A stretch of 42,725 bases of DNA from Actinomycetes bacterium (GTDB taxonomy: Bacteria; Actinomycetota; Acidimicrobiia; Acidimicrobiales; SZUA-35): the NCBI GenBank assembly GCA_024276425.1, contig JAJRXF010000197.1:1-42725 (forward strand), in the 5' to 3' direction. Made by a program: the position numbers and the translations under genes. Below are positions 14,521 to 37,138 of the stretch, in pieces. The notes beneath the pieces are model-generated. The model had not been told where the DNA came from, searched no databases, and saw only the letters and a program-made list of their open reading frames with translations. The number at the start of each line of letters is the position of its first letter. The stretch's first letter is position 1.

Positions 14521-14546
14521 CCCCTCCCACCTCCGTCTTGCCAGCT

Positions 14547-14607
14547 CTTACCGTGTCAACTCGGCGTCCCTCTAAGGGGGCGCTTAGTCGACACGCTTGA
14601 GCGTCGG
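14547..14607 (+). repeat. Palindromic flank, downstream side of DUF559 gene A
   Basis: A 61-bp segment that aligns without gaps to 15631-15691 on the other side of the gene (about 44 of 61 identical, counted by eye). It folds as a hairpin (GTGTC 14553-14557 with GACAC 14590-14594, inner GCGTCCC with GGGGCGC around CTAA). It ends 9 bp from the stop codon of the gene between them. Confidence 0.75.
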
Positions 14608-14616
14608 ACGGTCGGA

Positions 14617-15543
14617 TCAGCCAATTTGTGACCGGATCGTGCTGAGTACCCAACCCCAGTCGTTGGTGATTTGTGCCCAGGTGAATCGGCTGACACGCCA
14701 GCCCAGTTGTGCAAGATCAGCATCTCGACGGCGATCGACTTCGAAGGCGGCCGCGTTCAGGTGGAACTGCAGGCTGTCGAGTTCGATGGCGTAGCATTTG
14801 ATGGGGTAGGCCAGGTCAACTTGAGCTACCAGTTTGAGCTCAGATGACATCACCCGATGTTCCATCACGGGTCGAGGCAACCCGGATCGAACAAGCTTGT
14901 CCGCTACTTGGCGACTCCAGCCAGACAGTGGCACACCGGGATCGATCGAACGATCCGTGCAGATCTGGCGAAGTAGCCGAGAACCAGGTCGCCCCCTGCG
15001 AGCCAGTAGACCGAAGGCAGTTTCGACACGAGCCAAGGTAGTGAGACCGCGCCGAAGTGCCTCGTCCGCTAACTCATCGAGGTGTTGTCTCGATGTATTC
15101 GCGGCCAAACTGGCGAGGGCAATCTCAAGAGTCGCGGTCTTAACGCCCGATCGTTTGGTCTGGGGGAGCATGATTAGATCGCGAACTGAGACAAGGTCGA
15201 TGGATGCGCACTTCGGTCGTCGTTGGCAGGCAACGATCGGACGGACCGGGTGATCGTTCAGATTCCAGAGGGCCAGGGCCGAACGACCCCAAGCAATAGC
15301 GCCAAAAGCAAGGTTGGCTGCGTAGAGCCAGGTTTCAGGCCTATGGCCGAACTCGGCCAGAATGAGGGTGGAACGACCCGGCCCCGAAAGCCACTGACCG
15401 CGACGAACTCGACGATCAATCTGGGTTTTCGTCATGCCTGCGGCCAGAGCATCTTGGCGAAGCATGACGCCGTGGTGGTTGCGGTGAGCTTGGAATTCCA
15501 GATACTCCCGGGGAGTTCGGCCGACGGGTTCTTTGAGTGTCAT
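14617..15543 (-). CDS. AbiEi-like winged-helix plus DUF559 (Vsr-like) nuclease-fold protein, copy A
   Basis: 308 residues. The N-terminal ~60 residues (HGVMLRQDALAAGMTKTQIDRRVRRGQW) match the AbiEi antitoxin-type helix-turn-helix; the C-terminal ~100 residues match DUF559, a PD-(D/E)xK fold related to Vsr. Candidate catalytic residues are the Asp of QVDLAYP, Glu and Asp of AIELDS, His of QFH and the DRRRD segment. A GGAAG ribosome site sits 7 nt before ATG 15543. The protein is clearly paralogous to the one at 36176-37138, and both genes sit between homologous palindromes. No partner toxin gene is adjacent, so a classic AbiE role is unlikely. Function unknown; a DNA nick- or repeat-directed nuclease is a hypothesis. 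Confidence 0.75.
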   Translation of the reverse strand: MTLKEPVGRTPREYLEFQAHRNHHGVMLRQDALAAGMTKTQIDRRVRRGQWLSGPGRSTLILAEFGHRPETWLYAANLAFGAIAWGRSALALWNLNDHPVRPIVACQRRPKCASIDLVSVRDLIMLPQTKRSGVKTATLEIALASLAANTSRQHLDELADEALRRGLTTLARVETAFGLLARRGRPGSRLLRQICTDRSIDPGVPLSGWSRQVADKLVRSGLPRPVMEHRVMSSELKLVAQVDLAYPIKCYAIELDSLQFHLNAAAFEVDRRRDADLAQLGWRVSRFTWAQITNDWGWVLSTIRSQIG

Positions 15544-15630
15544 CGTGATTCTTCCAACAGAACGGTTGTCGGGAGAGTTCTCCGATGGGATTTACGTTAG
15601 TCGAGCGATCCTGAGACCTGGCGGCGAGCC

Positions 15631-15691
15631 CTTACCGTGCTAACTCGACGTCCCCCTAGAGGGACGTCGAGCGCGCATGGTTGAACGTCGG
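15631..15691 (+). repeat. Palindromic flank, upstream side of DUF559 gene A
   Basis: It contains a perfect 11-bp inverted repeat, CTCGACGTCCC (15644-15654) and its complement (15661-15671), around a loop containing CTAG, with an outer CCGTGC/GCATGG pairing (15635-15640, 15675-15680). It is an imperfect direct repeat of 14547-14607 and shares the CCCCCTAG core and GAGCGCGC tail with 37223-37280. Confidence 0.8.
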
Positions 15692-33765: not shown

Positions 33766-36164
<2,399 letters not shown>

Positions 36165-36175
36165 TCAGCGTGGCT

Positions 36176-37138
36176 TCAGGACGCTCGGCGAAGCGTGTGT
36201 ACCTGTAGGTGTGCTCGAATTGTTTGAACCACCAATGGCCAATCATCCTGGTATTGGTCCCAGGTAAAGCGGGCGACCCGCCAACCGGCTTGGGCCAGTA
36301 GGGCATCCCGTTTGCGGTCGGTTTCAAAGGCCGTTCGGTTGAGATGAAACTGAACACTGTCGAGTTCGATGGCGAGTTGCTTGTCCGGATAGGCCAAGTC
36401 GACCTGAGCCAGCAGTGATCCGTGCCGTCCAAGGACTCGGTGTTCCATCACCGGTCGAGGGAGGCCGACCTCTTCTAGCTTGAGGGAGAAGTTGCGGCTC
36501 CATGCAGACAAGGGAATGGTCGAATCCATCGATCGCTCCTGAAGGATGACTCGTAGCAGAGTTGACCCTGGTCGACTAGGGCGGATGAAGAGGCGAAAGG
36601 CGCTCTCGATCCGCGGCCAACTAATGAGCTGCTGACGGAGGGCCTCGTCGATGAATTCGTCCAAGGCTGGCTTTGGTAGCATTGGTTCGGTGGTAGAACT
36701 GGCAATCGAGGCCAGGGCAATGCTCAATTGAACGCTTGGAATCCCGTGGCGGACGGTCTGGGGGAGGGCGCCTAAGTCTTGTCGTAGCGTGAGGGAGATT
36801 CGACGATCACGGGAGCGGCCAATCGTGGCCAAGGTCGGAATCCGAGGATGCTCCGATAGGTCCCAAAGAGCGAGGGCCGAGCGACCCCAGGCGATTGCGT
36901 TGAGGCCTTGGGCTGCGGCCTGAAGCCAAGCCAATGGGTCGCTTTTGTGACTGGCGAGAATGAAGGTGCGACGTCCAGGGCCAGAACACCATTGGCCTCG
37001 ACGCACTCGCCGATCCAGTTGGGCTTTGGATAGCCCGGCATTGATGGCCTGTTCTCGGGTGATGACGCCGTGGTTGTTACGTCTGGCGTTTCGTTCGAGC
37101 CTAGCTCGAGGGTCGGAGCGTGGATTGGATCGCGGCAT
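36176..37138 (-). CDS. AbiEi-like winged-helix plus DUF559 (Vsr-like) nuclease-fold protein, copy B
   Basis: 320 residues with the same architecture as copy A: N-terminal NHGVITREQAINAGLSKAQ and DRRVRRGQW helix-turn-helix, a middle region with AIAWGRSALALWDL, and the C-terminal nuclease-like core QVDLAYPDKQ, AIELDSVQFH and TDRKRDALLAQAGWRVARFTW. The last ~100 residues are well over half identical to copy A by eye. An AGGAAG ribosome site lies 7 nt before ATG 37138, unlike the leaderless pattern of surrounding genes. It is separated from asd and the dimethylformamidase-like gene by palindromes on both sides, at spacings close to those around copy A. Confidence 0.75.
   Translation of the reverse strand: MPRSNPRSDPRARLERNARRNNHGVITREQAINAGLSKAQLDRRVRRGQWCSGPGRRTFILASHKSDPLAWLQAAAQGLNAIAWGRSALALWDLSEHPRIPTLATIGRSRDRRISLTLRQDLGALPQTVRHGIPSVQLSIALASIASSTTEPMLPKPALDEFIDEALRQQLISWPRIESAFRLFIRPSRPGSTLLRVILQERSMDSTIPLSAWSRNFSLKLEEVGLPRPVMEHRVLGRHGSLLAQVDLAYPDKQLAIELDSVQFHLNRTAFETDRKRDALLAQAGWRVARFTWDQYQDDWPLVVQTIRAHLQVHTLRRAS

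Follow-up and report, generated by a model that had tools for sequence, protein, structure and literature searches.

Described systems closest to the locus

RAYT genes encode Y1 transposases; according to PMC2817692, their flanking REPs are always in inverted orientation. Such a REPtron consists of a single gene with palindromes on both sides, the palindromes being dispersed, intergenic, abundant in the carriers and often paired, and each gene having its own; REPs are 20-40 nt long and carry a GTAG head. CGTC-tagged REPs are interspersed palindromes without a known dedicated transposase (PMC3733652). On the protein side, AbiEi, from the AbiE type IV toxin-antitoxin system, attaches to two inverted repeats of 23 bp and bends the DNA; AbiEi and Rv2827c autoregulate through pairs of such repeats, a promoter having one pair or two (PMC7319586). 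MTES_1575 has been described as a Vsr-fold REase (PMC3710099). A literature search that covered few subscription papers returned nothing relevant linking DUF559 to palindromes or REPs.

The window, i.e., the whole stretch of 42,725 nt analysed here, is one contig (C180) of a 3.95-Mb draft genome of 203 contigs (G000). The genomes compared with it are mostly MAGs: G001 is a congener of G000, recorded as an Actinomycetes MAG, and the other named relatives are mostly Acidimicrobiia. The carriers of the system are a group of mainly uncultured actinobacteria.

The system resembles REPtrons in all the features of organization listed above. It differs from them by: (i) the enzyme, predicted to be AbiEi-like with a Vsr-fold nuclease instead of a Y1 RAYT transposase; (ii) the length of the palindromes, about 52 nt; (iii) the absence of a GTAG head, one family (the B family) ending in GTTC/GAAC; (iv) a tandem step of about 71 bp; (v) the orientation of the flanking copies, the direct one scoring best for genes A and B of the window and for the G001 and G038 genes, the inverted one for others. 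Given this enzyme, head motif and orientation the system does not belong with RAYT genes, and is thus REPtron-like in its working without being a REPtron. With AbiE it shares the AbiEi N-terminal fold and an affinity in site layout (paired 23-bp inverted repeats, PMC7319586), but there is no AbiEii nucleotidyltransferase toxin gene beside gene A, whose neighbours are an amidase gene and yaaA; moreover a nuclease domain is fused to the protein and the candidate sites are dispersed over the genome. With I-Bth0305I (Vsr-type, EDxHD) it has in common the nuclease fold and a suspected selfish-gene behaviour, but no intron or intein is seen, short palindromes are linked to the gene and the protein has an AbiEi-like DNA-binding part. 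It differs from CGTC REPs by the ends of the B family and by the identification of a candidate cognate gene.

Genes A and B and their flanking palindromes

The features of the window are the following (bits and E values are those of the covariance model in the window).

14617 to 15543, minus strand: gene A, 308 aa, AbiEi-like N-terminal part and Vsr/DUF559-type nuclease domain
15631 to 15684, plus strand: palindrome A-up, 87 nt 5' of the gene A start; 50.9 bits, E = 9.4e-12
14547 to 14600, plus strand: palindrome A-down, 16 nt past the gene A stop; 53.3 bits, E = 2.1e-12
36176 to 37138, minus strand: gene B, 320 aa, paralogue of A with 56% protein identity
37225 to 37278, plus strand: palindrome B-up, 86 nt 5' of the gene B start; 49.7 bits, E = 2e-11
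36110 to 36163, plus strand: palindrome B-down, 12 nt past the gene B stop; 42.7 bits, E = 1.7e-9

Each of the four palindromes is 54 bp long, and their distances to the gene are nearly equal for the two paralogues. Over the whole window the covariance model finds four strong places only, the A pair and the B pair, the remainder being weak (E 0.1-0.9). Bracketing by chance is excluded, since the E values are 2e-12 and 9e-12 for the A pair and 2e-11 and 2e-9 for the B pair; the chance of all four 250-bp flanks of A and B being occupied is about 2e-11 (35 listed copies, 3.95 Mb). It must be noticed that the model was built from A, B and dispersed copies, hence partly from its own four window matches, so that the genome-wide census and the controls carry the weight.

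A preliminary description of this DNA had presented gene A as packaged between two homologous 61-bp palindromes that align without gaps. The gap-free alignment is found again, but not its length: segments 14540-14607 and 15624-15691 are direct copies over 68 nt with 72% identity. The packaging itself is more general than claimed, gene B being bracketed likewise. Both A segments are indeed palindromic, A-up with perfect 14-bp arms (CTCGACGTCCCCCT/AGAGGGACGTCGAG) and A-down as an imperfect 44-nt hairpin; their outer edges lie, as described, in the intergenic DNA between the amidase gene and yaaA, and the leader of ~90 bp and the gap of ~10-20 bp announced there are measured as 87 nt and 16 nt. 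Ordinary terminators had been named as the alternative: no intrinsic terminator (stem followed by a T tract) is called at 14547-14600 or 15631-15684, and no Rfam RNA family is found at the palindromes.

Gene B adjoins an asd-like gene (window 34983-36116; L039 5190-6376), whose orientation relative to its neighbour is flipped between G000 and G001; in G001 both junctions of the flipped gene carry palindromes of the family of the adjacent DUF559 gene. Elsewhere in the window, a strong 17-bp hairpin (GAAACCTTCGAACCC...GGGTTCGAAGGTTTC) is located at 1850-1888, directly after a tRNA and near the SRP RNA.

Pfam assigns protein A to MTES_1575 (1.2e-5) and, weakly, to DUF559 and AbiEi_4, all under the curated cut-offs; the PADLOC AbiEi profile matches protein A at 1.9e-10 and protein B at 3.4e-13. 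The predicted structure of protein A (pLDDT 88) aligns with AbiEi (6y8q, Z 10.8) across residues 5-199 and, across residues about 205-308, with I-Bth0305I (3r3p_A, Z 11.2) and Vsr (1cw0_A, Z 8.5). Protein A is predicted from this model to be an AbiEi-like part (about 5-199) joined to a Vsr/I-Bth0305I-type nuclease (about 205-308). The nuclease-type residues D243, E254, D256, H261 and D270 are invariant among the close homologue set, and dN/dS values of 0.07-0.31 indicate purifying selection on the protein. A search for plasmid or phage relatives of protein A gave no match.

Dispersal, co-occurrence and turnover

The covariance model has 65 matches in the G000 genome, both strands counted, corresponding to 35 distinct listed copies (two of them being one sequence at two contig ends); about 30 copies are thus scattered in addition to the four of the window. 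B-down belongs to this dispersed family. The 23-letter A-family pattern is found at three G000 sites, the third (C3:25460) between convergent genes. The alignment of 21 B-type copies gives a 52-bp element, GTTCGTTGTCGCGTTTGCGACCC-NTTTNT-GGGTCGCAAACGCGACAACGAAC, i.e., an arm of about 23 nt, a 6-nt loop and a second 23-nt arm, with the ends GTTC...GAAC at which conservation drops abruptly on both sides. There is no arm covariation within the B family, so the dispersed copies resemble decaying repeats. Across the gene-linked families of the A clade, paired arms match each other better than they match the arms of other families (0 of 5000 permutations).

All 25 core-pattern copies examined are intergenic (according to a simple codon-usage gene caller): the neighbouring genes are tandem for 15 of them, convergent for 5 and divergent for 3, and 2 copies are unclassified. 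The dispersed core-pattern copies are mainly closer to the 3' end of a neighbour. Most palindrome copies are gene-less, as with REPs. One intergenic site (L163 1480-1650; L106) has palindromes in both G000 and G001, from different families, the G000 copy of the site being a tandem pair 113 bp apart. Pairs of nearby, inverted palindromes that enclose no DUF559 gene (G062 C28, G000 C31) were considered as further units and rejected, their contents being ordinary or hypothetical genes.

Among 61 genomes the core pattern is clearly enriched in five only, G000, G001, G030, G035 and G036 (respectively 32, 41, 37, 24 and 12 strand matches vs. 5, 1, 0, 1 and 0 for the reversed control); the next highest count is 9 vs. 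1. These five are the genomes that have a homologue of gene A at >=42% identity (p = 1.7e-7 if the five highest were drawn at random, relatedness being ignored). The covariance model gives 51, 40, 29 and 9 matches in G001, G030, G035 and G036, and zero in G018, G034 and G042, which are relatives without a close homologue. Y1 (PF01797) transposases of the RAYT/IS200 type are found in none of 10 carrier genomes, the controls being positive in E. coli and four other genomes. In G001, about 16 sites carry the palindrome that goes with a different DUF559 gene; G000 has none. Three G001 contigs (the starts of L037 and L087, the end of L038) share an end of ~141 bp that contains the G001a palindrome; this end adjoins a coding sequence repeated in G001.

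Related genes across Acidimicrobiia have palindromes of their own that are mutually unrelated, i.e., different genes go with different families. Across the order, the two flanks of DUF559 homologues are far more alike than mismatched pairs. Their match also exceeds the 99th percentile of same-locus, same-spacing controls at 17 of 47 named loci (Mann-Whitney p = 1.5e-8), but strong homology between the two sides is found in only about a third to a half of the sampled genes with the thresholds used. Flank matches in Microbacterium, Gordonia and Demequina are at background level, and some others, e.g., G049, were set aside as likely due to base composition and not to palindromes. G038 is a complete chromosome; each of the five DUF559 loci examined there has a palindrome pair on either side, with a sequence peculiar to that locus. 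One G038 family, CCTGCGACG-N25-CGTCGCAGG, has 28 matches vs. 0 for the reversed control and occupies about a dozen loci besides the gene.

The step between paired copies is 71-72 bp in 11 of 12 pairs of this family, 70-73 bp in three other G038 families and 62 bp in one. The sponge symbionts, whose palindromes are unrelated, have mostly 70-71 bp, with some steps of 60, 65 or 85 bp, and one four-copy tandem array. Step classes near 60-62, 71 and 82 would be roughly one helical turn apart. The spacer often repeats flank bases from both sides, and the pairs thus look like tandem duplications of a palindrome with its flank. Another DUF559 gene, L035 (G009:C6:245851-246714 plus flanks), has on both sides an 86-bp, nearly identical inverted repeat built of sub-palindromes, possibly a very recent event.

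At orthologous sites of the sponge symbionts the palindrome copy number is 0, 1 or 2 according to the species. Comparison of empty and filled sites, proposed in the preliminary description, thus reveals variation between close species, but it gave no clear case of a site that had never been occupied: the best candidate for an absent copy (G062) still has part of a palindrome and may result from a deletion. The amidase-yaaA interval was rejected as an empty site because other genes occupy it, two TldD/PmbA-like genes in G001 (L082 4769-7545) and other genes in G008, G017 and G022.

At one sponge-symbiont DUF559 locus, identity between species is ~95% in the DNA past the last downstream palindrome but mostly 50-85% in the genes (60-column windows), some pairs being closer. 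The palindromes differ as matched sets and the boundary is the last palindrome. This result could come from cassette replacement as well as from very fast joint evolution. Close species of sponge symbionts differ in the orientation of a ~3-kb block that lies to the left of the DUF559 gene (L194, L195, L197 and L200 vs. L196, L199 and L203); palindrome-mediated inversion was not retained as the explanation, just one breakpoint being at a palindrome, that of the DUF559 gene.

A proposed nuclease system with its own palindromes, and the competing explanations

The likeness to RAYT genes and REPs put forward in the preliminary description holds up, since copies bracket DUF559 genes and are also solitary at dozens of intergenic sites. 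Together with the co-occurrence, the copy-number variation and the lack of called terminators, it makes a self-propagating system that recognises its own palindrome the leading reading of these sequences; the part of that proposal in which gene and palindromes move as one unit is not borne out. The system is probably REPtron-like with an unrelated enzyme: A and B would each own a family of ~52-bp palindromes, bind them and drive their spread. The palindromes most likely are binding sites of the protein, and its nuclease would drive their copying and tandem duplication.

Three steps can be proposed: (i) the AbiEi-like N-terminal part would bind both arms of the palindrome, as AbiEi does on its 23-bp repeats, judging from the fold and from the B consensus, whose two 23-nt arms and short loop fit the geometry of the AbiEi site; the upstream palindrome could in addition let the protein repress its own gene; (ii) the Vsr/I-Bth0305I-type C-terminal nuclease would nick or cut at or near the bound palindrome; (iii) repair of the break would copy the palindrome to new intergenic sites, duplicate it in tandem with a preferred step of ~71 bp, and homogenise the copies on either side of the gene, with joint diversification of gene and palindrome as the outcome.

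The strongest rival is that the palindromes are operators through which the AbiEi-like protein represses itself and controls a regulon, the nuclease being incidental or acting elsewhere. Autoregulation of AbiEi and Rv2827c through 23-bp inverted-repeat pairs (PMC7319586) agrees with the arm length and with the upstream position, and a regulator with many operators would yield part of the pattern. However, the second copy sits past the stop codon of the same gene, the dispersed copies are mainly nearer 3' ends with only 3 between divergent genes, and arrays reach four tandem copies, with pairs that have duplicated flanks. As presence and copy number also vary between close species and the close homologues show no change in the nuclease-type residues, this explanation is unlikely.

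A homing-type selfish endonuclease gene could also have invaded older palindromes spread by another agent. The modelled match of the nuclease domain to the homing endonuclease I-Bth0305I, and the gene and flanking palindromes that differ as a cassette at one locus, are consistent with it; yet only genomes that have a close homologue of the gene are rich in the palindrome family, the families differ from gene to gene, and no other spreading agent came to light, the 10 carrier genomes having no Y1 transposase, which leaves this origin improbable. The palindromes could finally be ordinary REP- or MITE-like repeats, or terminators, that lie near a fast-evolving gene and have no functional tie to its protein. 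REP-like repeats without a known transposase are a precedent (CGTC REPs, PMC3733652), but this reading is still less probable: independent genes each have a different palindrome on their two sides (5 of 5 in G038), the chance level in the window is ~2e-11, and no terminator is called and no Rfam family found at the palindromes.

On balance, the propagation reading extends to the family: AbiEi-Vsr (DUF559) nucleases would recognise, cut and propagate their own interspersed palindromes, and form a new class of bacterial selfish repeats convergent on the REP/RAYT lifestyle, a view that is held here with slightly more confidence than its opposite. The system is counted as new in kind because, for interspersed palindromes, the literature covered describes no enzyme related to this one; if the kind were defined as a gene plus its interspersed palindromes, it would be a new form within a known one.

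Since many natural gene-palindrome pairs exist, the specificity of the nuclease for its palindrome is directly testable. DUF559-type proteins, on which the literature covered has almost nothing, are given here a candidate substrate, anatomy and role. They are candidates for a second class of enzyme associated with interspersed palindromes, which bears on the REP families that lack a known transposase.
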